Shown here one piece after another: positions 2,015-20,414 of a stretch of 24,164 bases of DNA; positions within the stretch are counted from its first letter, which is position 1, and each line of letters opens with the position of its first letter. The notes below the pieces were generated by a model. The model had not been told where the DNA came from, ran no database searches, and saw only the letters and a program-made list of their open reading frames with translations. The stretch is from positions 1 to 24,164 of IMG/VR virus record IMGVR_UViG_3300017917_002337, one strand, 5' to 3'. The stretch comes from a virus. Made by a program: the position numbers and the translations under genes.

Positions 2015-3067
2015 TTAACTTTTAATATTTAAAACTCCGTTATTAATAAAGTTTTCTCTACTGATATTCCAAACATCAGTCTCAACAGCCCATTTCAAAT
2101 CTCCAATAAGCTGTGCTACACCTGGATACTTACGTCCTTTATGCTCAAATCCTTCATAAGCATCTAACAAATCACCTTCTTTAAGTGTATAAATTAATGG
2201 GTTATAATAGTTTGTGCTATCACAAACAATAAACTTAGGACATTCCACTTTATATTTATACAACTCACTATTTTCATTTACTGTTAAACTTATAGCTGCA
2301 CAATAATATAAATATGCCTGAATATAAGCTCTTCTGTAAAGATAATACTCTTCATAGAAATTCTCTACATTCCATGTACATTTTAAATCATACACCTGTA
2401 TTGCTCGCTGTTTGTGATCAACGATCACCTTATCCATCATACTCTTAAATAAATGCCCATCTACAGAATATCCTTCTATTTGGAACTGATTTTTAACATC
2501 ATATCGAGCACTGCTTACAAGATTAATCACATCACTTGTAACAAAGTTTGTCTTAAGTTCTGTCACAATCTTTTCAGCATTTGTAACATCATCAGATGTT
2601 ACCACGATGAGACCTTTACTTCTCACCTTTCTGAGCTCTTCGTAATAAATCTCTGCATCCGATCCCTGAAACTTACTTATTACAGCATCATATTTAATCT
2701 TAAATCCAGAATCATTATATGCATCTAGAGATATGTCTGCAAAAGATCTATTAACATTCCCAAACTCATCTGTTGCTGCTGCTGTATGTTTATATAACGC
2801 TTCTACAAATGCAAGCATCAGACCAGTTGGGGCAGATAGACAAACTGACATATGAAATCTCTCATCAAACAATTCTGGTTCTAATAGAAGAGTTTCTACC
2901 ACTCTACCTATAATAGAGGCTTTTGTATCCTCTTCTTCCAATTTTTCACCTAATATGTACTTCTTGTAATAGGCTTTTCTATTTGTAGAAAACTCCTTTA
3001 GACTAGAAGAGCTATCCATTTGAACAGCTCTATACTCTTTTTCTGTTTTAACTTTTCCTGCTATCAT
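2015..3067 (-). CDS. PD-(D/E)XK nuclease (RecE/Cas4-like phage exonuclease family)
   Basis: 350 residues. Near residues 54-71, GRVVETLLLEPELFDERF matches the N-terminal helix motif of phage PD-(D/E)XK exonucleases, which usually contributes an early acidic or His ligand (here Glu58). Asp212 (SMMDKVIVD), then Asp227-Leu-Lys229 (VYDLKC), supply the core D...(D/E)xK motif. Tyr-rich YIQAYLYY (248-255) supplies the downstream Gln. The likely activity is metal-dependent processing of DNA ends for recombination or host DNA breakdown. The Sak4-like ATPase and SSB in this window would suit a strand-annealing pathway, which is inference. Start at 3067 overlaps the upstream gene by 4 bp. Confidence 0.8.
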   Translation of the reverse strand: MIAGKVKTEKEYRAVQMDSSSSLKEFSTNRKAYYKKYILGEKLEEEDTKASIIGRVVETLLLEPELFDERFHMSVCLSAPTGLMLAFVEALYKHTAAATDEFGNVNRSFADISLDAYNDSGFKIKYDAVISKFQGSDAEIYYEELRKVRSKGLIVVTSDDVTNAEKIVTELKTNFVTSDVINLVSSARYDVKNQFQIEGYSVDGHLFKSMMDKVIVDHKQRAIQVYDLKCTWNVENFYEEYYLYRRAYIQAYLYYCAAISLTVNENSELYKYKVECPKFIVCDSTNYYNPLIYTLKEGDLLDAYEGFEHKGRKYPGVAQLIGDLKWAVETDVWNISRENFINNGVLNIKS

Positions 3068-4087: not shown

Positions 4088-5515
4088 TTAGCTAATAGTT
4101 ACAATTCTTTTGCTAATTTCATTCTTCATTTCTTCAAGAGATGTAACAATGTTGTTAATCTCGGTAGCAGAAATGCTTGGAATGTTAAAGTCATATTTTT
4201 TAGACTCTGCAACAAAACCATCTTTAGCCTTTTCTGCAAGATTTTGCAGTTCGCGAACAGCGAACGACTCATCCAGCTGAAGAACATCGAAATTCATATC
4301 ATGCAAAAGTTCTGTAGCTTCCTCACGAGGAACAGTCATAATAGGAAGATACTCATAACATCTACCTTTATGTTCACCAATTCCCACTACCTTCATAGGA
4401 TTGATAAGAACAAGAACGGACTGATCACCACATCCTACATAGTGAATCTGATCAGAAGTGAAGTGTAAACCAGCAGCAGCACAATCCTGTGTACTCCAAT
4501 TGCACTGATCCATAGGCATATTCACCACTTGACCAATACGAATGTCAAATGTCTTGGTCCAATCATCAGTGAACCTATTCTCATGTCTATTAGGAAGATC
4601 CAGATAGAGCTCTGTCAAACCACCTATTTTCTCACCATGATCAACTGGTTCTTCATAGTCATAAGATTCCTCAAGTTCCTCATCCCATCCTTCAACTGTC
4701 TGGGTTAACTGACTATTATGAACTAATTTATATTGTCCATTTTCTAAGAACACTGTATAATCATCAGGGCTCTTTTTCCAAACAGCCTTCACTTTGTTAT
4801 AAGCATTACTTACAAATTGAACCAGTTCATTACTTCCGTGAAGAGTAACTACATTTCTAAGAGCTGCAAAGAAACCTTGTTTAGTGATTCTGAAGCTATT
4901 TCTCATCAGAAAATCATAAAGACTGTCAGCCACTTCAGCACGTGGGTTTAAGCAACACCACATAAAGAAGCGCTTAAGTCCTTGATATTCATGATTCTCA
5001 GCTAAATTTGCCTCTAAATCACCAAATCCTGTATAATACTTCTCTCTTTCTACCACTTCAATAAACTTCTCAACCAATAACTGAGGAAGAGATCTATTGA
5101 TTCCTTTGAGATATACAGAGTTTTCTACCACTTCAAAATCATTAAGACCTTCTAATACAGAAAGTCCTTTCTTTAAGGCCTGAACTCTCTCAATTTCTCT
5201 TTGTCTTTCCATGCGCTCTTGTCTAACTTCTTCAGTGGAAATTATATTAATAATCTCCTCTTCAGATTTAGCAGCTTGCACTCTTCTAAAATCTTCTAAT
5301 GTAGCATCTGGCTTACTTACAATCTCTCCAGATCTTAACACTACAATGAGTGTGTCATCTACTATTTTTGCTTTCGTAAATGGTTTGACATCAATGTCAT
5401 AATCAGAACCTCCGTCTTCTTGTTGCATTAATTCATCAATCTTGTTTGCAATAACTCTTTCTACTGCTGTCTCAATTTTACTTTTGAACCAGTTAAGGCT
5501 TAGAAACTTACTCAT
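4088..5515 (-). CDS. rIIB: rIIB-like protein
   Basis: 475 residues, longer than T4 rIIB (about 312). It is identified by the C-terminal block 329-378: GQVVNMPMDQCNW, TQDCAAAGLHFTS, then VLVLINPMKVVGI. This follows the T4 rIIB pattern of a GKVVKMP-like motif, TC..GLH, and a V.V.P.DVVSIP strand. The conserved helical segment DFLMRNSFRITKQGFFAALR (201-220) precedes it. The N-terminal 120 residues are helical and charged and may be specific to this lineage. Its partner rIIA is directly upstream. The pair is known in T-even phages for membrane-linked effects on lysis and exclusion of other phages; the mechanism here is unknown. Confidence 0.85.
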   Translation of the reverse strand: MSKFLSLNWFKSKIETAVERVIANKIDELMQQEDGGSDYDIDVKPFTKAKIVDDTLIVVLRSGEIVSKPDATLEDFRRVQAAKSEEEIINIISTEEVRQERMERQREIERVQALKKGLSVLEGLNDFEVVENSVYLKGINRSLPQLLVEKFIEVVEREKYYTGFGDLEANLAENHEYQGLKRFFMWCCLNPRAEVADSLYDFLMRNSFRITKQGFFAALRNVVTLHGSNELVQFVSNAYNKVKAVWKKSPDDYTVFLENGQYKLVHNSQLTQTVEGWDEELEESYDYEEPVDHGEKIGGLTELYLDLPNRHENRFTDDWTKTFDIRIGQVVNMPMDQCNWSTQDCAAAGLHFTSDQIHYVGCGDQSVLVLINPMKVVGIGEHKGRCYEYLPIMTVPREEATELLHDMNFDVLQLDESFAVRELQNLAEKAKDGFVAESKKYDFNIPSISATEINNIVTSLEEMKNEISKRIVTIS

Positions 5516-5568: not shown

Positions 5569-7893
5569 TTACGCTAATTCTTCTACTTCTTCTTCTGTAA
5601 TTGGTTGATTGACAACCTCTTCGTTTAATTTAATATTATAGTTTTTCCAATCTATCCTTTGTTTGTAGTATTTGAATAAATCAGCTATTGCTTTTATAAC
5701 AGGAATGTCCCTGTCATGTCTGTAACTGTGTAAAGTGTCACACAATGGCTGTAAGAACGCAAGCTTTTCTAAAAGAGCCTTCACTTGCTTGTAAATAGGA
5801 TAGATTTCTTGATCAAAAGCATTATTCATTTGTGCAACTTCTAACATTGCTTCGTATATAGTGACATTAGCGTATTCACAATTGCTTTTTCTATATTTAT
5901 CAAGAGTGTCTAATTTATTATATAAATCTTCAGAAATAGAACGTAATTGTTGTCTCTTGTTAAATACGTCTTTGTTTTGGTCAAACAATTTCTCTATTAA
6001 ATATGCGGTTACCAGTCTTTTAAACGGTTTGTTTTCTCCTTTCATAAATTCATCGAAGGTTATCCAGTTGTGAAAATTAACTTTTGCCATGTTCCCAAGC
6101 TCTCTTGGAGAGAATTGAACAAATTTGATTTCAGATTTACATCTATTAAAATCAACAATCTTAAACAATTTGTCCATCAGCTCTACATCTTTCTCTCCAC
6201 TATACACCATTAAAGACTTCTCTCTGTGCATAGTTTCCAACCTGTAAGTGGTACTCACCCACTTACAATTCTTACCATCCACCCATCTCTCCAAATTCAA
6301 GGCTTGCTTGCCAATTATCTCACCCTTAAGTTTCACTTTTCTTGGACCACCGGTTCCTCCAGATTGACCTATAGATATTGCTACCTTTTTCTTGCTATCA
6401 AGCCAATCCTGAGGAATGTCCAATTGATCAATGTTAAGAAAGCTATCAAACAAACTTTTTAATATAGACTGAAACTCCTGAATAGCCTGTCTCCATTTGT
6501 TTTTAGGAACATACTTTAAAGAAAGAATGTTATGATATGTTTTAAAGTCAGTGACTCCAATTCTTCCCAGTTTGAAATCCCTAACCTTTTTAACTATCCT
6601 AATCCTATTTCCATATCCTGTGTTTCTAGCATACAGTTCTTTAAGATACTCTTTCTTCTTTCCAGGAATCTTTTCGCTAAACACAAATATCCTCTCTTTA
6701 AGATGGGTGTCGTTAAGATCTGTATCATAACTTCTCTTACATTCTCTCCATCTACCACTCTCCATTCTATATCTAGTTTCATACTCACCAAACATATAAT
6801 GTTTATTTGCATAGAGCTTTTCTAAATTTAAAACTTCAACCCCTTTCATCTTTGGATTGATAATTGTAACTGTAGCAAAACTCTGAAACACGGAGATATC
6901 TTTCTTAACGCCTTGTAAATCAATATATCTTAAACCACTTGAATAGTAGTCAAATATATCCTTAATGTTTGAAACTTCTTCAACTGTTTCATTATACTTG
7001 GTTACAAAGAAGTTTGCAATTTGAGTAATTTTATTTAAAATCACTTCTTTTGCTTCCTTTGTATATCGAATAGATTCTCTGTTTGGCGTAGGGAACACAC
7101 CATCTGTAAGACCAAGTCTTATTGCTACAGGGAAAGTTATACGATCTATACCAAGTTTCTGAAAGTCAATAGGATAGTAGACATTATCTAGACACAAATG
7201 AAGATTACCATCTGTTGCCAGCTGAGAAAACTGAAACAGTTCATTCCTATATATAACAAAGTTATTGTCAATATTGCTTCCACAATCAAAATAAACACTG
7301 TCGAAATAAGCTAATTGCTCACTAATCTTCTCATAAAACTCACGTCTATCAGAATATTTTACAGGAACAATCACTTTAACACCATTATCTTCTGTTGTGT
7401 GATTTTCATAAAGAAGATCGATTGTGTTTACATCTTCTCCTTCGTACATCATATATTTACGCTCAATCCCATCTTTTCTACATACAAAATAGAAAGAAGA
7501 AGAATAAGCAAGGGGAGCTTTAAAACCCAGTCCCATCATACCTAATTCTGTAGAGCTGTTACGCTTTGTGCTCTTACCATATTTACTAATGATGTTTCTT
7601 ACATCATCAGCATCCAATCCAATACCAAAATCCTCTACAGAGAATTCATAATTATCTTCACTGTTAGGTTTAAAACTAACAACGATAGGTTTGTCAACAC
7701 CAGCTCTTCTGTGACTATCCAGTGCATTTGAGGCACATTCCCGGATAGTAGAGCCTATAGAATCTGAATACAAATTCTTACTTAACATCTGCATCAACAC
7801 TTGTGCAGATTCTAAGTCTAATGACATTCCAATAGAATCTTGTGTTTCACCTTCTTGTTCAATGATTGTGTTTGTCTGTTTCTCTAAGATCAT
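5569..7893 (-). CDS. rIIA: rIIA-like GHKL ATPase
   Basis: 774 residues, close to T4 rIIA (about 725). The N-terminus is a GHKL ATP-binding domain: N-box RECASNALDSH (51-61), G1 motif EDFGIGLD (87-94) and G2 motif LGMMGLGFKAPLAYSSS (117-133). The rest is largely helical with a charged C-terminus and has no second nuclease or transducer motif I can name. With rIIB it forms the classic rIIA-rIIB pair. A hairpin at the 3' end may lower rIIB expression. The start ATG is 2 bp from the stop of the upstream gene. Confidence 0.9.
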   Translation of the reverse strand: MILEKQTNTIIEQEGETQDSIGMSLDLESAQVLMQMLSKNLYSDSIGSTIRECASNALDSHRRAGVDKPIVVSFKPNSEDNYEFSVEDFGIGLDADDVRNIISKYGKSTKRNSSTELGMMGLGFKAPLAYSSSFYFVCRKDGIERKYMMYEGEDVNTIDLLYENHTTEDNGVKVIVPVKYSDRREFYEKISEQLAYFDSVYFDCGSNIDNNFVIYRNELFQFSQLATDGNLHLCLDNVYYPIDFQKLGIDRITFPVAIRLGLTDGVFPTPNRESIRYTKEAKEVILNKITQIANFFVTKYNETVEEVSNIKDIFDYYSSGLRYIDLQGVKKDISVFQSFATVTIINPKMKGVEVLNLEKLYANKHYMFGEYETRYRMESGRWRECKRSYDTDLNDTHLKERIFVFSEKIPGKKKEYLKELYARNTGYGNRIRIVKKVRDFKLGRIGVTDFKTYHNILSLKYVPKNKWRQAIQEFQSILKSLFDSFLNIDQLDIPQDWLDSKKKVAISIGQSGGTGGPRKVKLKGEIIGKQALNLERWVDGKNCKWVSTTYRLETMHREKSLMVYSGEKDVELMDKLFKIVDFNRCKSEIKFVQFSPRELGNMAKVNFHNWITFDEFMKGENKPFKRLVTAYLIEKLFDQNKDVFNKRQQLRSISEDLYNKLDTLDKYRKSNCEYANVTIYEAMLEVAQMNNAFDQEIYPIYKQVKALLEKLAFLQPLCDTLHSYRHDRDIPVIKAIADLFKYYKQRIDWKNYNIKLNEEVVNQPITEEEVEELA

Positions 7894-8204: not shown

Positions 8205-8924
8205 TCATTTTAACCATTCAATTGAAAAATTATTGTTATCTCTTAATATCTTGTTCACCTTTGTGAACGTACCTTCTGTATCCCAATCTGTTTGTTTGTA
8301 TGAGGCAGAGGCTGGATGACTCACTACAAAACTCCATGAGAAGGGTGGTATATACTTTCTGTATACACTAGCATCCTTACCAAGAAACACATAAGGAACA
8401 CCGGATGTAGCTAAAACATCTTCAAGGAGGTATTTTGTAAACGGTTCCCACAACTTGATGTGTGATCCTGCTTTGTTCATTTCTGTTGTAAGAGCAGCGT
8501 TTACCATCAACACTCCTTGTTTGGCCAGATATGAAACATCTGGATTCTTAGTGTAATGTAAGTTGAGTCCATTATATACATCGTCTTCTACACCCTCATA
8601 GAACTTCTCTAGAGATGGTTGTAATTTGCCTGTAACAGAACAGCCCATAAGTAAACCGTCTGCAACAGGAAGTCCTTCATAAAATGTGTGATAGGGGCAC
8701 ATTCCCATCATCACCACTTTTAAGTCATCTAAGGGAGTTTCTGCAAAACATCTATAAACATTAGGAGAAAGAGGGGCAATTTTTTTTCCACGTGCAGACT
8801 CTTTCTTTAAAAATTCATATATTGGATCAAAACCTCCTGAATCAAAAAAAGGTTTAAACCTTGAAGCCCAAGTACCAAATAATACTTCAAACTTTTTCCA
8901 ACTTAACTTTGTTTGTATTTCCAT
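8205..8924 (-). CDS. Uracil-DNA glycosylase family 1-like protein with altered catalytic loop
   Basis: 239 residues, the usual length for family 1 (Ung). The fold landmarks are in order: the water-activating loop is GMCPYHTF (74-81) where Ung has GQDPYHG; the uracil-binding strand is VLMVNAALT (138-146, Asn142 matching E. coli Asn123); the DNA-intercalation loop is SHPASAS (202-208, His203 matching His187). The catalytic Asp (E. coli Asp64) is replaced by Cys76 and the adjacent Gln by Met. Family membership is strong; normal uracil excision is doubtful. It may bind uracil or DNA without cleaving, or use a different chemistry. Its first 22 bp overlap the end of the GIY-YIG gene. Confidence 0.85.
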   Translation of the reverse strand: MEIQTKLSWKKFEVLFGTWASRFKPFFDSGGFDPIYEFLKKESARGKKIAPLSPNVYRCFAETPLDDLKVVMMGMCPYHTFYEGLPVADGLLMGCSVTGKLQPSLEKFYEGVEDDVYNGLNLHYTKNPDVSYLAKQGVLMVNAALTTEMNKAGSHIKLWEPFTKYLLEDVLATSGVPYVFLGKDASVYRKYIPPFSWSFVVSHPASASYKQTDWDTEGTFTKVNKILRDNNNFSIEWLK

Positions 8925-9736
8925 ATAAATCCTTTGTGAGTTTTTCTTAATCCATTACACACACTTGTAATATTTGATTGATTGTAACCAAGTTCATCTC
9001 TAATTTGACTTGCACCCAACCACTCTTTTATAAAATTTCCATGTAAATCGTACTGAAAAACTGTTTTATATCTAGAAAGTTTCATGTTTTCTACATGTTC
9101 TTTTGACTTTTTTTTGCCTTTAGAAGCAATTGACATATTTTTTTTAGTTTCTTCAGTGTGCCAAGGTTTATTGTTCTTTCTTCTTGAATCTATTTGTTTT
9201 TTAACTGATTCTTTGTTTCTAAATTTTCCTTTATTTATTAAAGATAATTTTAACTTTGTTTCTTTAGAATGAGTTTTTCCTTTATTAGAATCAGATATTT
9301 TCTTACGACTTTCTTCAGAATGAAATTTTCCTCTCATTCCTTTTCCAGAATCTCTATTTTTAAATTTTTCAGAATTTTTTAAAGATTGACTTATTTTTTG
9401 TTTATGTTCTTCTGTAAATTTATTTTTTAAATTATTTCCTGTAGGTCGTAAATTAAAACCCTTTTCTGGATTATGAGTATCATGTAGCAAACAGTAATAG
9501 TTTTCTTTAACTTTACATTCATTAAATTCACAATATTCTAATACACTAAAAGAAAAATTATCATATCCATACTTATTCCATGCATTTTGCAAGTAAGGAT
9601 TTTCATGACGATTTCCTTTTAAGTTTTGAATATGATAATTTATTCTTTTTCTAATATTTCCTGTTTCTCCAATTATAGATTTATTTGTAGGAACACAAGT
9701 TATCATATATATTCCTGGTTTGTTTTCCAATATCAT
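8903..9736 (-). CDS. GIY-YIG homing endonuclease with NUMOD3 and NUMOD1-type DNA-binding regions
   Basis: 277 residues. The nuclease domain (about 7-98) has GIY at 8-10, IIG in place of YIG at 21-23, Arg29 and catalytic Glu78, followed by GFNLRPTG. Residues about 105-222 are repeated NUMOD3-like helices of the form EE..KKIS.SNKGK. The C-terminus, FQYDLHGNFIKEWLGASQI followed by NITSVCNG and GFIWKY, is a NUMOD1/IENR1-type helix-turn-helix. It is clearly more A/T-rich than neighbouring genes, as expected for a mobile gene. It carries its own consensus promoter at 9756-9787 and its last 22 bp overlap the UDG-like start. Confidence 0.92.
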   Translation of the reverse strand: MILENKPGIYMITCVPTNKSIIGETGNIRKRINYHIQNLKGNRHENPYLQNAWNKYGYDNFSFSVLEYCEFNECKVKENYYCLLHDTHNPEKGFNLRPTGNNLKNKFTEEHKQKISQSLKNSEKFKNRDSGKGMRGKFHSEESRKKISDSNKGKTHSKETKLKLSLINKGKFRNKESVKKQIDSRRKNNKPWHTEETKKNMSIASKGKKKSKEHVENMKLSRYKTVFQYDLHGNFIKEWLGASQIRDELGYNQSNITSVCNGLRKTHKGFIWKYKQS

Positions 9737-12774: not shown

Positions 12775-13443
12775 TTAATTGTAATACTCATTGACCTTAT
12801 CTACCACCAACTGCAAATTGTTTGGAACTTTCAGGTCTTCAAACATTCCATCAGGGCTCTTTGCAGGGTATTTCTTATATCTATTTGTTACGAAATAATA
12901 ATTAGCCCCTTCTTTTGTGTCTTCAACATGTGTGTAAAGACAAATAGTAAATAAACCTTCTAAAACAATCTGGTTGTCCAGCATCTTTCCAGAGGTTTTC
13001 ATCTTATATCCTACAATCTCTCCACTATCTTCAACAACTTCTGGGTGAGAAAAATAGAAGATTTTCAAATCATCCCTAAGTTTGCGAGCCTCTCTAAACA
13101 AATCCACCATATCTTTAGCCATTACAGTGAACTTTGTATATCCCACCTCATTAGCTTTATCAGCCATACGAAATGCCATCATATAATTGCTATCTTCAAT
13201 AACAATGTTTTTGATGTGAGGAGCTTTCTCAGAAACGGTTTTAATGAGACGTGTAATTTCTACAATCTCATCAACCTCCTTGTAGTTTTTGTTTTCAGAG
13301 TTGTACAGTTTTTCTGCGCCTTTGAAAGGAAGTTCTTTCTTAGCAGTGTTGATGATGTAAGTTTCCTTTGGATCTAAATGCTTGATCGAGGTGGATTTTC
13401 CAGTGCCTGTAGCACCAACAATCCCAATTAATTTACTTGCCAT
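12775..13443 (-). CDS. Sak4-like RecA-fold ATPase (phage recombination)
   Basis: 222 residues. Walker A is GATGTGKST (10-18), Walker B is IVIED (80-84), and FYFSHPEVV provides the sensor-like strand with polar His. Size and motif layout match the Sak4/AAA_24 group of phage ATPases, which assist single-strand annealing together with SSB. The SSB-like gene is immediately downstream, the known genetic association for Sak4. A consensus promoter lies directly upstream (13463-13493), so this gene probably starts a Sak4-SSB transcript. Confidence 0.8.
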   Translation of the reverse strand: MASKLIGIVGATGTGKSTSIKHLDPKETYIINTAKKELPFKGAEKLYNSENKNYKEVDEIVEITRLIKTVSEKAPHIKNIVIEDSNYMMAFRMADKANEVGYTKFTVMAKDMVDLFREARKLRDDLKIFYFSHPEVVEDSGEIVGYKMKTSGKMLDNQIVLEGLFTICLYTHVEDTKEGANYYFVTNRYKKYPAKSPDGMFEDLKVPNNLQLVVDKVNEYYN

Positions 13444-16524: not shown

Positions 16525-16737
16525 AAATTACCAATTTTTGGTACTATTAGTACGATTATCAAACCAAAAATAAAACGCATGAGTTTTTTGGCAAAATTCA
16601 TGCAAATCTGTCGCAAATGTTTGCCACTTTTGAGACAAAAGCTGTCTAAAATTTGTCACGATTATTTGAAAAATTGTGACATAAATAAGTGTAATTTTTT
16701 GCGAATAGTAGCACTTTTCATCACTTATTGCAAATTA
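16525..16737 (-). other. Palindrome-rich non-coding region upstream of dnaB
   Basis: 213 bp without an accepted gene. Besides the promoter it holds GCAAA-TG-TTTGC (16613-16624), AGACA-N5-TGTCT (16633-16647), and TGTCAC-N16-GTGACA (16654-16681). A possible weak terminator for the gene ending at 16738 could form from AAGTG/CACTT repeats (16687-16726). The density of inverted repeats next to a replicative helicase suits a control region or replication origin; neither is shown. Confidence 0.5.
16565..16595 (-). promoter_or_regulatory. Consensus Bacteroidota-type promoter of dnaB, with flanking inverted repeat
   Basis: Minus-strand TTTG (16592-16595), 19 bp, then TATTTTTG (16565-16572) match the consensus exactly. 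An inverted repeat GCATGA (16577-16582) / TCATGC (16598-16603) brackets the -33 box, and GTAC-N5-GTAC (16541-16553) lies just after the predicted start near 16558. Both could be operators. Confidence 0.7.
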
Positions 16738-17064
16738 TTACTTCTGGGTGACATTATTGTCGCTCACAAAAGACTTTGGTGCTAATTCAGATATTCTATC
16801 TGTTTTTGCTGCCAGAATACCTCTACCATACCAATACCCTTGTACAGATTTCTGTACAGATTCCTGTACATCAAGTTTGAGATGAAGATAACCTTTTATA
16901 AATCCATTGATAAAAAAGTTTTTATCATTCTCATCACAACCATCACATCCTTCCCAGGATTGTTCTGCTAAGTTTTTTACTCTTTCCAGTTCAGCTTTAC
17001 GTTTTTCATTCTGTTCAATAACGTCTGCTTGTCTTTGATATTCATTCCATTGTGCTGGTGTCAT
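16738..17064 (-). CDS. Accessory cassette protein of unknown function (108 aa)
   Basis: The N-terminal 35 residues are a charged helix; then SWEGCDGCDENDKNFFINGF has a CDGC pair, and residues about 66-77 carry a triple repeat of VQ.S encoded by three 12-bp units. The C-terminus is Ser/Asn-rich. The start is fixed by the junction leader AAAAAAGATTAGTT-ATG, which is shared with other genes here. Last gene of the small-gene cassette. Confidence 0.7.
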   Translation of the reverse strand: MTPAQWNEYQRQADVIEQNEKRKAELERVKNLAEQSWEGCDGCDENDKNFFINGFIKGYLHLKLDVQESVQKSVQGYWYGRGILAAKTDRISELAPKSFVSDNNVTQK

Positions 17065-17088
17065 AACTAATCTTTTTTAGGTTGTTTA
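17065..17088 (-). repeat. Junction repeat copy (QPKKD end plus leader)
   Basis: Same unit as at 18494-18515, encoding the KQPKKD end of the zinc-ribbon-like protein and the leader of the 108-aa gene. Confidence 0.75.
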
Positions 17089-17264
17089 ATATATTTTTGA
17101 AGTATGTATTGCAGTTTTGACATTCCAATGGTTAGTCCTTCTTTTTTAGGTATTTCAGTATCATACATATCAACACCTTCTTGGATAACTGATTCTGATT
17201 CTACACAATCAAAACAAAAACCCATTCTAAGTTCTTGCTCTCTGTTACAACATTTACATTCCAT
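17067..17264 (-). CDS. Small zinc-ribbon-like protein with KQPKKD tail
   Basis: 65 residues. Cysteines at 3, 5, 6, 17 and 20 (ECKCCNREQELRMGFCFDC) suggest a small zinc knuckle; then MYDTEIPKKEGLTIGMSKLQ. The protein seems to have its natural end near LQYILQKY, followed by the tail IKQPKKD, which is encoded by the repeated junction. Function unknown; zinc binding is inferred from the Cys pattern. Confidence 0.75.
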   Translation of the reverse strand: MECKCCNREQELRMGFCFDCVESESVIQEGVDMYDTEIPKKEGLTIGMSKLQYILQKYIKQPKKD

Positions 17265-17287
17265 AATTAATCTTTTTTAGGTTGTTT
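17265..17287 (-). repeat. Junction repeat copy (QPKKD end plus leader)
   Basis: Same unit with one base change (TAATT instead of TAGTT), encoding the KQPKKD end of the 45-aa protein and the leader of the zinc-ribbon-like gene. Confidence 0.75.
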
Positions 17288-17404
17288 GTTTTTCCAATAA
17301 AATCTACTATAATTTCTATAAAAATCAATACCACAAATTGTATAAGATATAAATTCCATCCATCTATATTTTGATACTATAATAAACTCTTTGAGCCTGT
17401 TCAT
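17267..17404 (-). CDS. 45-aa cassette protein with KQPKKD tail
   Basis: A short basic, aromatic protein (MNRLKEFIIVSKYRWMEF at the start, SRFYWKNKQPKKD at the end). Its ATG overlaps the upstream stop as TAATG, and its stop is 2 bp before the next ATG, so spacing supports a real gene. The last six residues are the junction-encoded tail shared with genes at 17067 and 18496. Function unknown. Confidence 0.55.
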   Translation of the reverse strand: MNRLKEFIIVSKYRWMEFISYTICGIDFYRNYSRFYWKNKQPKKD

Positions 17405-17997
17405 TATTTAGGTTGTTTAAGTGATAACATTAAGTATTCAGCAGTTAATCCTGTTTCTCTGCTTTTCTCAACTATTTCTTTAACTTGTTCCTCTGTATAT
17501 AGAGTTTCTTTGGCTTTGTTGTAACCCCATTTAGCACCTAATTCAAAACCTAATAACTGACCATCATTATATTGACCATCGTCAAGATGCTTAGTATATG
17601 GAAGTTTATTAAGTTCATCTTCTAACCCTAATTCCCATACATCATCTTTATAGAACCCATCCCTATCATTTAATTCCATAATCTCTTTGATAAGTTCTTT
17701 TTGGCTTTCTTTCTTACCAGTTTTTGTAAATTCTAATTCTCCTGATGGAATTAGTTTGGCATAACGTTTGAAATCATCAAGTGTAGGTAGTTTCCTATCA
17801 GTATTTGTATTTGTTTCCCATATATTTACTATCTCAAACTCTACTTTTTTACCCTCCCAAGCACTATCTCTTACGGCATAACTTAGACTTTCATCTTCTG
17901 GATGTAATGGTAAATAATGAAGTGGCTCAAGATATTCTTTCGGGTTTGAAAACCTGACTACCCACCCTTGTTCTGTTTTATGTAATGTTCCTTTCAT
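17404..17997 (-). CDS. Two-part accessory protein, MKGTL-type N-domain plus TEEQV/SLKQPK C-module
   Basis: 197 residues. The N-terminal part (1-62: MKGTLHKTEQGWVVRFSNP, then KKVEFEIVNIWET) is a small beta domain seen as a free protein in Bacteroidota phages. The C-terminal part (about 97-197) is related to the separate gene at 18496-18804: ELIKEIMELNDRDGFYKDDV versus QLITEIMDLDAKDGLYEDDV, then YTEEQVKE, then SLKQPK. This looks like a fusion made by recombination between cassette members. No catalytic motif is visible. Confidence 0.8.
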   Translation of the reverse strand: MKGTLHKTEQGWVVRFSNPKEYLEPLHYLPLHPEDESLSYAVRDSAWEGKKVEFEIVNIWETNTNTDRKLPTLDDFKRYAKLIPSGELEFTKTGKKESQKELIKEIMELNDRDGFYKDDVWELGLEDELNKLPYTKHLDDGQYNDGQLLGFELGAKWGYNKAKETLYTEEQVKEIVEKSRETGLTAEYLMLSLKQPK

Positions 17998-18281
17998 TGT
18001 ATTTCTATTTCAGAGTTAAAATATCTTTGTTTTAATTCGTTAAATCCTTTGGCATTACCTGTGTTTGGGTCTAATGTATTATATAAAATCTCTGCACCAT
18101 ATTCAATAGAATGTTCAGCAAGTTTTTCTGCTGGTATTAGCTGATATATTTTACGCTTCATATCTGTAACATTTAAATAAACCTTATCCTGTGAAAAATC
18201 CATAAATTTATCTAATAACTCGTCTAATTCATTTATAAATTCATTACTAATAAGTGAATAGTCTTGTAGTTTAATTTTCAT
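17994..18281 (-). CDS. Cassette protein of unknown function (95 aa)
   Basis: Mainly helical and acidic (EFINELDELLDKFMDFSQDK), ending ELKQRYFNSEIEIQ. The start has the junction leader AAAAAAGATTAGTT-ATG although the upstream gene does not end in QPKKD, so the leader travels separately from the tail. It overlaps the next gene by 4 bp. Confidence 0.7.
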   Translation of the reverse strand: MKIKLQDYSLISNEFINELDELLDKFMDFSQDKVYLNVTDMKRKIYQLIPAEKLAEHSIEYGAEILYNTLDPNTGNAKGFNELKQRYFNSEIEIQ

Positions 18282-18322
18282 AACTAATCTTTTTTAAATA
18301 TTATTTCATATACAACTTTTGT
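18282..18322 (-). repeat. Junction leader copy without the QPKKD-coding part
   Basis: Minus strand TTTAAAAAAGATTAGTT (18282-18298) directly before ATG 18281 matches the leader half of the repeat at 17065, 17265 and 18494. The upstream half, which would encode KQP, is absent. Confidence 0.6.
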
Positions 18323-18493
18323 TCAATAGTAAACTTCAATTATATGACACGGTTCAATCTTCGATGCGATTGGTATTGCTTGATTTGCCTCTAATAAATT
18401 AGAGTATTTGGTTGCGTATAACCAGCCTTTGAATTCCTTATAAGAGTCTGCCCAAAATCCTAATCTTACGCTTTGTATTACATATGCTTTCAT
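18323..18493 (-). CDS. 56-aa cassette protein of unknown function
   Basis: Starts at ATG 18491-18493 directly after the junction repeat and reads MKAYVIQSVRLGFWADSYKE, ending EPCHIIEVYY before TGA 18323-18325. The pattern of short beta segments and a helix looks like a genuine small domain, and it fills an otherwise empty 200-bp gap with normal spacing. Function unknown. Confidence 0.6.
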   Translation of the reverse strand: MKAYVIQSVRLGFWADSYKEFKGWLYATKYSNLLEANQAIPIASKIEPCHIIEVYY

Positions 18494-18515
18494 AACTAAT
18501 CTTTTTTAGGTTGTT
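18494..18515 (-). repeat. Junction repeat copy (QPKKD end plus leader)
   Basis: Minus strand reads TTAAACAACCTAAAAAAG then ATTAGTT-ATG: the upstream gene ends KQPKKD-stop and the downstream ATG follows 2 bp later. Other copies are at 17065-17088, 17265-17287 (TAA in place of TAG) and a shortened one at 17404-17420. These are the boundaries of the small-gene cassette. Confidence 0.75.
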
Positions 18516-18804
18516 TAAGTGATTGGATGATTTCTTCTTCTGACCATTTAGTTCTTAAATCATTATTATCCCCGTAATGTAAAACCATATTAAGGTCAAC
18601 TGTTCCATCAATAGAATCTGCTTCCCAAGCCATTCTTATTGCTTCCCTAACTTGTTCTTCTGTGTATAGAGTACATTCAACTATTACACCATCAAATGCT
18701 TTTTCTTTTGATACTAATTTCTCAACATCATCTTCATACAACCCATCCTTAGCATCTAAGTCCATTATTTCTGTAATGAGTTGTTTTTGTTTTTCTTTGT
18801 TCAT
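18496..18804 (-). CDS. TEEQV/SLKQPKKD-type accessory protein
   Basis: 102 residues, acidic and helical: KQLITEIMDLDAKDGLYEDD, then LYTEEQVREAIRMAWEADS, then WSEEEIIQSLKQPKKD. It is the free-standing counterpart of the C-terminal half of the protein at 17404-17997. The YTEEQVREA...IIQSLKQPKK layout is common in small Bacteroidota phage proteins with no known role. First accepted soluble protein of the cassette after the 29-aa membrane peptide. Confidence 0.8.
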   Translation of the reverse strand: MNKEKQKQLITEIMDLDAKDGLYEDDVEKLVSKEKAFDGVIVECTLYTEEQVREAIRMAWEADSIDGTVDLNMVLHYGDNNDLRTKWSEEEIIQSLKQPKKD

Positions 18805-18901: not shown

Positions 18902-19375
18902 TTAATTAATTGCTCTATATTGAAATTTATACCCCATAACGTTTAGTGCTTTTATCAAACTTGCTATAGATATTTTTCCTTGAACCTCTCTTGTTTCCAT
19001 ATCAAGAACTGCCTGTTTACTTATTCCAAGAAGCTCTCCCAACTCTTCCATAGATAGATTTTTCTCCAATCTACAGCGTTTTATTTCTCCTATTGGAGAA
19101 GAATCGTAATGCTCAAATCCATACTTCCACAACAATGCCTTATCAAGACCTTCAACAAACTCCTGAAGCTCTTGTGTATAACAAAACCATTCTCCATTAG
19201 AAAGAATATGTTTAAACCTTTCGTGATAGGTGGATTCATCATTCAAATCCCCTTCAATTAAAGCAAGAACTTTCAACCTAACAGGACAGCTAGTTTGAAG
19301 ATCACTCAATCTACTACGAATATCACCAGTGTATCCAATCTTTACATAATCTGTATGATTTATAAAATATATCAT
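18902..19375 (-). CDS. Regulator: T5orf172/GIY-YIG-like domain fused to XRE helix-turn-helix
   Basis: 157 residues. Residues 1-75 (YFINHTDYVKIGYTGDIRSR, LQTSCPVRL, YHERF, NGEWF) match the T5orf172/MUG113 branch of the GIY-YIG superfamily, with Arg20 or Arg22 and His51/Glu52 as possible active-site residues. Residues 95-157 are an XRE-type HTH (MEELGELLGISKQAVLDMET) with a C-terminal extension REVQGKISIASLIKALNVMG that resembles mobile mystery protein A. Repeated AAGTAAAG-type sites overlap its promoter, so it probably represses itself. Nuclease activity is uncertain; DNA binding is well supported. Confidence 0.85.
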   Translation of the reverse strand: MIYFINHTDYVKIGYTGDIRSRLSDLQTSCPVRLKVLALIEGDLNDESTYHERFKHILSNGEWFCYTQELQEFVEGLDKALLWKYGFEHYDSSPIGEIKRCRLEKNLSMEELGELLGISKQAVLDMETREVQGKISIASLIKALNVMGYKFQYRAIN

Positions 19376-19449: not shown

Positions 19450-19761
19450 TTAATAAAATTCTTCTAATTGTGTTTGTTTTAATAATTCATCCATTGAAAA
19501 ATCTGTGTCATTACAGTCTTTAATTAGTTCTATTAACTTTTTTAGATTTTCTTCTGTAAAAGCAAATCGAGAGGCATCAAAATATTCATAAGGTAGTTCG
19601 TTTTCTGTTAACTGAATTTCTGAAAGTAAAAATGCTAATTTTTTCTGAGGTAAAACAGTAACACTATATATTACATGATATATATTTCCTTTCTTAACCC
19701 ATTTTTCTTTAGGTATAATTATAGGTTTATCAGAATCATTAATACAAATAGTTTCAATCAT
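19450..19761 (-). CDS. Conserved small phage protein of unknown function (103 aa)
   Basis: MIETICINDSDKP at the start, then EKWVKKGNIYHVIYSVTVLP, then ELPYEYFDASRFAFTEENLK. This follows a widespread small phage family with the pattern CIDDSN..P..W(V/I)KKG and YEYF.ASRF, probably a small beta-barrel. Its start overlaps the stop of the GIY-YIG gene by 4 bp, and a partial second copy of its first codons stands upstream of that gene (20501-20536). Confidence 0.8.
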   Translation of the reverse strand: MIETICINDSDKPIIIPKEKWVKKGNIYHVIYSVTVLPQKKLAFLLSEIQLTENELPYEYFDASRFAFTEENLKKLIELIKDCNDTDFSMDELLKQTQLEEFY

Positions 19762-20414
19762 TTGTTATTCTTTTTATTTTCTAAATATTTTTTTCTTCCA
19801 GCTATCATTTTAGCTTTTGTTTCTTCAGAAATACCTCTTTTTTTAGCAGATTCACTCATTTTAAGTAATGTTTCAGGAGAATTTTTCTTTCCTTTGTGAA
19901 TTTTTTTCATTAGCTCACTAAACTCTTTTTTATGTTTCTTTCCATGAAAAAATTTCTTACCTTTAGAATGAGCTTTTTTTAATCCTTCACTTAAACTTTT
20001 TTTATGTTCTTCAGATAATTTCACTCCTTTTCTAGCCATGGATAAATTTTTTAATTGCTGTTCTGTGAATTTATATCCTTTATTCTTTAAAGATATTTTT
20101 TTCTTTGTTTCTTCAGAATGACTACCATTGCTTCCAGGTTCTTTTATATTCATCATTTCAAAATTACAATTCTTATATTGTTGCCAATAAAAAACTTCAT
20201 AGTTATTTAAAACCTCTTGAGAAACATCGCTTGGAAGTTCATAAACTAATTCAATTAAATGAGCTTTTGAGCCATACTTTAAAAAAGAATTGTATAATAT
20301 TCTTTGACTAAAACATCTAATATTTTTATAATTTCTAAATCTTGTTACATGATCTCTAGTTTGACCAATATAAACTTTACCAGAAGGGCTAATTATTCTA
20401 TATATTCCTGTCAT
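19758..20414 (-). CDS. GIY-YIG homing endonuclease with NUMOD3 repeats
   Basis: 218 residues. GIY at 3-5, YIG at 15-17 (SGKVYIGQT), Arg25 and catalytic Glu73 (NNYEVFYW) form a complete GIY-YIG nuclease domain. Residues about 97-212 are NUMOD3 repeats (SEETKKKISLKNKG, SEEHKKSLSEGLKKA, SEETKAKMIAGRKK) for DNA binding. Very A/T-rich and Lys-rich. Unlike the first GIY-YIG protein it lacks a NUMOD1 C-terminus. It overlaps the next gene by 4 bp, as if it entered at that gene's 5' end. Confidence 0.92.
   Translation of the reverse strand: MTGIYRIISPSGKVYIGQTRDHVTRFRNYKNIRCFSQRILYNSFLKYGSKAHLIELVYELPSDVSQEVLNNYEVFYWQQYKNCNFEMMNIKEPGSNGSHSEETKKKISLKNKGYKFTEQQLKNLSMARKGVKLSEEHKKSLSEGLKKAHSKGKKFFHGKKHKKEFSELMKKIHKGKKNSPETLLKMSESAKKRGISEETKAKMIAGRKKYLENKKNNK

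Follow-up and report, generated by a model that had tools for sequence, protein, structure and literature searches.

Promoter early stem-loop (PeSL) cassettes of T4-type phages, reportedly described by Arbiol et al. in 2010, are said to carry a repeated regulatory element between small genes that is thought to shuffle modules. Cluster K mycobacteriophages carry Start Associated Sequences (SAS/ESAS), a short asymmetric repeat that lies in one orientation immediately upstream of the ATG start codon (Pope et al. 2011, PMC3203893). The SAS precede different genes and sometimes hold the stop codon of the upstream gene, and the role in translation initiation that has been proposed for them is unproven (PMC3203893). 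Conserved boundary sequences in mosaic phage genomes are targets of homologous recombination (reviewed in PMC3233612), and relaxed homologous recombination is a property of the Rad52-like recombinases of phages (De Paepe et al. 2014, PMC3945230); Sak4 annealing proteins have been described as well (PMC5928155). With regard to translation, the start regions of Flavobacterium johnsoniae have no Shine-Dalgarno sequence, are A-rich at -14 to -11 and have an A at -3, and high translation is associated with A at -13, -12, -6, and -3 (PMC6847099).

Here, we compare with these systems a locus in a virus record from IMG/VR, 24,164 bp long, the whole of which we refer to as the window. A sequence-only reading of the window had noticed a 25-bp unit at the junctions of a small-gene cassette and had offered two explanations for it: the unit is a homology handle for swapping or adding accessory genes and spreads a peptide tail, KQPKK(D), as a by-product, or the tail itself has a function. 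It is probable, in our judgment, that the unit is a start-associated sequence that doubles as a short joint for recombination, with the tail indeed a by-product. The DnaB helicase of the window has its nearest relatives in Flavobacterium, Bacteroides, and Cellulophaga phages and in uncultured gut phages, and these affinities make a Bacteroidota host likely for the window phage.

Results

The window contains the unit, AAACAACCTAAAAAAGATTA[A/G]TTATG, in full three times, in a short form once, and once as the leader alone, which confirms the inventory and the sites claimed in the sequence-only reading (Table 1). All copies lie on the minus strand and inside 1.5 kb, and in shuffled sequence no match to the 25-mer with at most 3 mismatches is expected. 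Parts of the unit are the leader, AAAAAAGATTARTT, which is its 3' part and is followed by ATG, and AAACAACCT. As had been claimed, the unit supplies the start region of the next gene, in that it carries the leader and the ATG of the 56-, 65-, and 108-aa genes. The short form at approximately 17404 reads CACTTAAACAACCTAAATAATG, and a 12-bp core, AAACAACCTAAA, also marks junctions with other starts (TAATGA, CAATGA, CCATGA, and AAATGA).

Table 1. Positions of the junction units, the cassette genes, and other features in the window, and of contigs with the second junction unit.
Feature	Position (strand)	Remarks
Full unit AACAACCTAAAAAAGATTAGTTATG, exact	18491..18515 (-)	End of 102-aa gene (KQPKKD), leader and ATG of 56-aa gene
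Leader-only copy TTAAAAAAGATTAGTTATG	18279..18297 (-)	Precedes 95-aa gene
Short junction TCACTTAAACAACCTAAATAATGA	17402..17425 (-)	SLKQPK end of 197-aa gene overlaps ATG of 45-aa gene
Full unit, A variant (TTAATT, one difference)	17262..17286 (-)	End of 45-aa gene, leader and ATG of 65-aa gene
Full unit AACAACCTAAAAAAGATTAGTTATG, exact	17062..17086 (-)	End of 65-aa gene, leader and ATG of 108-aa gene
102-aa cassette gene	18496..18804 (-)	Ends EEIIQSLKQPKKD
56-aa gene	18323..18493 (-)	Started by unit
95-aa gene	17994..18281 (-)	Started by leader-only copy; homologue in L004
197-aa gene	17404..17997 (-)	MKGTLHKTEQGWVV...SLKQPK; left neighbor of swapped slot, also in L004 and L028
45-aa swapped gene	17267..17404 (-)	Unrelated genes instead in L004 and L028; L020 homologue has other neighbors
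65-aa gene	17067..17264 (-)	Between two full units; ends KQPKKD
108-aa gene	16738..17064 (-)	Started by unit
Sak4-like single-strand annealing protein	12775..13443 (-)	phrog_2872, E 1e-55; candidate recombinase, putative role
Exonuclease VIII-like protein	2015..3067 (-)	phrog_412, E 2e-14; candidate partner, putative role
GIY-YIG or T5orf172-type (homing) endonuclease-like genes	8903-9736, 18902-19375, 19758-20414	Around cassette region
rIIB-like protein and adjoining large HATPase-domain protein	4088-5515, 5569-7893	phrog_609 (rIIB-like); perhaps an rIIA/rIIB pair
ACTAAACAAACAAGACTAAT junction contigs	L176 1986-2774; L169 3812-4113; L175 1986-2472	Second junction unit

The KQPKKD C-terminus is present on three ORFs, of 102, 45, and 65 aa, as claimed; however, the tailed proteins are not all unrelated to one another, as the claim had it. 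The C-terminus of the 197-aa ORF is SLKQPK and lacks KD. This ORF has a 98-bp dispersed segment (17618-17715) in common with the 102-aa gene (18704-18801), with 77% DNA identity, and a TLYTEEQV segment is also common to the two proteins. Kin of the 98-bp segment were seen in loci L002, L003, L004, and L071. No function could be assigned to the cassette proteins from Pfam or PHROGs.

We also looked for structure and regulatory signals in the unit. The fold z-scores of four copies range from -0.2 to 1.1, indicating no structure above that of shuffles and no stem-loop, and neither a hairpin nor a palindrome was found. An Rfam search was negative, and there was no excess of terminators or of sigma-70 promoters, Bacteroidota promoters lying outside the models of the latter scan.

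Elsewhere in the window are a Sak4-like gene and an exonuclease VIII-like gene (Table 1). Sak4 was found in just 3 of 22 records, many of which are fragments. One of the three GIY-YIG/T5orf172-type genes is fused to a helix-turn-helix domain.

Beyond the window, the exact 25-mer (G form) is present in four other viral-contig stretches, and the A-or-G form in 27 loci, a count in which the window is included and in which two or more loci possibly represent one virus. Thus the unit, which the sequence-only reading had proposed to seek in other phages, is present in other phage contigs. The 19-base leader, CTAAAAAAGATTARTTATG, occurs in 59 stretches as compared to 2 for a permuted control of equal composition, and close copies within a record are clustered and mostly on one strand. 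No copy of the unit turned up in the collection of sequenced phages at the search sensitivity applied, at which short-query matches were at chance level; the region had no DNA match in this collection, and the 102-aa protein had no relative there. Likewise, the full unit was not found in approximately 85,000 bacterial and archaeal species (one genome each). Three 21-mer matches in these genomes, in a Prolixibacteraceae MAG, an Anaerolineales MAG, and Lutibacter, were rejected as true units, as their flanks show none of the unit's extension. The short form AAACAACCTAAATAATG by itself gave mostly unrelated matches in viral contigs and is therefore unreliable as a marker. We found no mention of KQPKKD in the literature searched.

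The genes that flank the unit assort independently. Among pairs of copies on different contigs, the upstream side alone is shared in 102, the downstream side alone in 66, and both sides in 16, 10 of which represent one clonal gene family. We examined 479 alignments of at least 80 bp; 24 of them end and 18 begin in the unit in both contigs, where the null gives 0.016 and 0.010, respectively. That is, homology breaks at the unit in 42 alignments, and approximately 0.03 are expected. Eight alignments pass through the unit, all between contigs that are 98-100% identical and mostly come from different metagenomes, which indicates that the junctions in those pairs (the window's own junctions being outside this evidence) are real; assembly chimerism was considered and, on this basis, rejected for those pairs.

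The clearest replacement concerns the MKGxLHKTEQGW...SLKQPK gene, which is common to the window, L004, and L028. It is followed by three unrelated small genes, of 45, 38, and 50 aa, respectively, each of which closes with KQPKKD and the unit, and then by three different genes. The window and L004 are near-identical over approximately 110 bp up to AAACAACCTAAA, unalike over the small gene, and alike again over the next unit alone. The L020 homologue of the window's 45-aa gene, with 79% DNA identity, has AAACAACCTAAACAATG on both sides and other neighbors. Similarity thus stops at the boundary and the genes beyond it differ, as is the case for conserved boundary sequences, and the genes between copies are not the same genes in the same order. 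These breakpoints point to recombination. Of the two earlier explanations, the homology handle with the tail as its by-product is favored.

We then compared the tail at the DNA and protein levels. A scan that was free in all synonymous codons of KQPKKD-stop gave genuine copies and chance matches. The genuine copies have one spelling, AAA CAA CCT AAA AAA GAT TAR (GAC for GAT in one), and in nearly all cases are followed directly by a start codon, while the chance matches use other codons, lie inside other genes, and have no TTATG behind them. Of 33 copies spelled AAACAACCTAAAAAAGATTAR in this codon-free scan, 30 have TTATG next and 2 have ATG one base further. When the codons of IIQSLKQPK were left free in a second scan, essentially a single spelling came back again, and other junctions keep just KQPK or KQPKQ. 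Among 65 nonredundant copies of the leader, the upstream gene ends in the KKD frame, two bases from the next ATG, in 45, and in 6 it ends in a different frame, at the CCTAA of the unit; the remainder are in spacer or are read past. The conserved 19-mer was chosen by exact match, and its invariance is partly ascertainment. The codons of the neighboring TEEQV module likewise vary little at synonymous sites, so recent common descent or spread accounts for part of the identity. Given the several frames, the use in spacer, and the fixed codons, the tail follows from the DNA: it is conserved as DNA and not as a peptide, and neither the free synonymous codons nor the constant frame of a peptide tag were seen.

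The unit runs straight into the next ATG, with six A at -14 to -9, T at -6, and A or G at -3. The start regions of ORFs of at least 100 aa in unit-bearing contigs, unit copies counted in, are A-rich and G-poor and have no Shine-Dalgarno sequence. AAAAAAGATTA is continued by [AG]TTATG in 91 of its 107 occurrences. When repeated words ending in ATG are counted per locus, the unit's word ranks first, most of the loci having been fetched because they hold it. The leader also occurs without the KQP part, and some leader-only matches may be convergent A-rich starts. It was seen behind a conserved 373-aa gene in L048, L057, L058, L065, L068, and L075; in L057, the gene that follows differs from that in the other loci.

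The small proteins are combinations of dispersed segments, among them MTSIEW, TEEQV...SLKQPK, and ISDEEIEKA...KWYREQLKQ. The MTSIEW start is found in 57 nonredundant contexts, 14 of which have the unit's leader. Relatives of the 197-aa protein include contigs with a second junction unit, ACTAAACAAACAAGACTAAT, which is followed or overlapped by ATG, goes with SLNKQD or KKQD tails, and has as many as three copies in a record (Table 1). This differently spelled unit suggests, from few examples, a class of such units. A palindrome-like sequence, GTACTAATAGTAC, lies at 16540-16554 in the window, approximately 20 bp before the DnaB gene, and a similar sequence is present upstream of MTSIEW genes in L030, L044, L152, L135, and L150; it is possibly an operator or promoter element.

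Discussion

The unit is conserved at the DNA level, holds a fixed place before the ATG, is read in several frames, and coincides with homology breakpoints. From these observations we infer that the leader is what drives translation, that homology underlies recombination at the unit, and that the tail is a by-product. The 3' part of the unit, AAAAAAGATTARTT-ATG, would act as the translation-initiation leader of the next gene. Because the genes are packed with approximately 2 bp between them, the 5' part, AAACAACCTAAA, would overlap the 3' end of the preceding gene and be read as KQPK(KD), be read in another frame, or go unread. Many small genes would enter and leave via the same 12-38 bp, so that unrelated genes would be homologous exactly at their borders, and this border homology would allow recombination between copies, within or between phages, to replace or add a whole small gene together with its start signal. 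The Sak4-like protein and the exonuclease are candidates for the recombination machinery of the window phage.

Exchange could also be illegitimate, with selection for intact genes. Together with a strong translation-start consensus, conserved or convergent, that reflects a ribosome preference of Bacteroidota, such exchange might explain the junctions with no joint at all, and it would fit both the generally A-rich start regions of these contigs, which lack Shine-Dalgarno sequences, and the leader copies that have no KQP part, including those behind the 373-aa gene. This alternative is nonetheless unlikely, given that AAACAACC recurs together with the leader although it is not part of the start region, that permuting the leader at equal composition yields few matches, and that the window and L004 diverge directly behind AAACAACCTAAA. 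Less likely again is a recombination joint or hitch-hiking sequence that is spread by exchanges and has no translation role: the conserved block resembles a start region and, in nearly all codon-free matches, ends exactly at the ATG, although breakpoints and assortment at the unit and the copies in spacer are what such a sequence would leave.

The proposal that KQPK(KD) is a functional peptide tag whose DNA identity stems from recent spread is rejected on codons and frames and retains very little probability. The KKD frame does prevail among the leader copies, and neighboring modules too have few synonymous changes, but other copies are in another frame or unread, genuine copies have no synonymous spellings, and some junctions retain KQPK or KQPKQ alone. 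The earlier suggestion that the tail itself has a function is disfavored by the same use of more than one frame, the spacer copies, and the fixed codons. It is just as improbable that the cassettes are moved by a specific enzyme, such as a homing endonuclease or a site-specific recombinase, whose target is the unit. Three GIY-YIG homing endonuclease-like genes are present in the window; however, the unit has no hairpin or palindrome, and junction variants are also breakpoints or gene borders, a better fit to homology than to a strict site.

Whether phage mosaicism is guided by border sequences or results from random recombination and selection is an old question (PMC3233612). The unit offers a border that is compact, plausibly has a function of its own in translation start, is present in many copies, and shows clean single-gene replacements, and these make the guided model directly testable. 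Annotators should note that when unrelated proteins of phages end in a common C-terminal tail, this tail can derive, as a by-product, from the start signal of the gene that follows. The unit could also help to locate small accessory genes in uncultured phages. More tentatively, environmental Bacteroidota-type phages might share 'dialects' of gene-start junctions, such that the short unit of each lineage pool (KQPKKD, or ACTAAACAAACAAGACTAAT/SLNKQD) makes accessory genes interchangeable with their starts intact; if true, this would amount to plug-and-play assembly of accessory gene sets.

The unit resembles the PeSL element in that it is repeated between small genes, but it differs in having no stem-loop and, in the sigma-70 scan, no excess of promoter-like sites. 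In part, and for a host that is a probable one, the unit resembles the start regions of F. johnsoniae (PMC6847099): it is A-rich at -14 to -11, has A or G at -3, and lacks a Shine-Dalgarno sequence; unlike in F. johnsoniae, where A is favored at -6, it has T at this position, and it is a fixed repeated word of 19-26 bases where F. johnsoniae shows a trend in base frequency. The window encodes a Sak4-like protein, in keeping with the Rad52-like and Sak4 recombinases that promote mosaics, though most partial unit-bearing records have no Sak4 match. Like conserved boundary sequences, the unit is a short conserved gene border between copies of which the gene is exchanged; unlike them, it is also a likely start signal, recurs within a genome as well as across contigs, and overlaps coding sequence. 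Like the Cluster K SAS, it lies directly upstream of starts and in one orientation, but it is also read as the C-terminal tail of the gene in front of it and marks the sites at which genes have been replaced. Since it has neither AGGAG nor GGG and thus lacks the SAS consensus, GGGATAGGAGCCC, with its Shine-Dalgarno core, the unit is not a member of the SAS family, yet it would work like the SAS and conserved boundary sequences.
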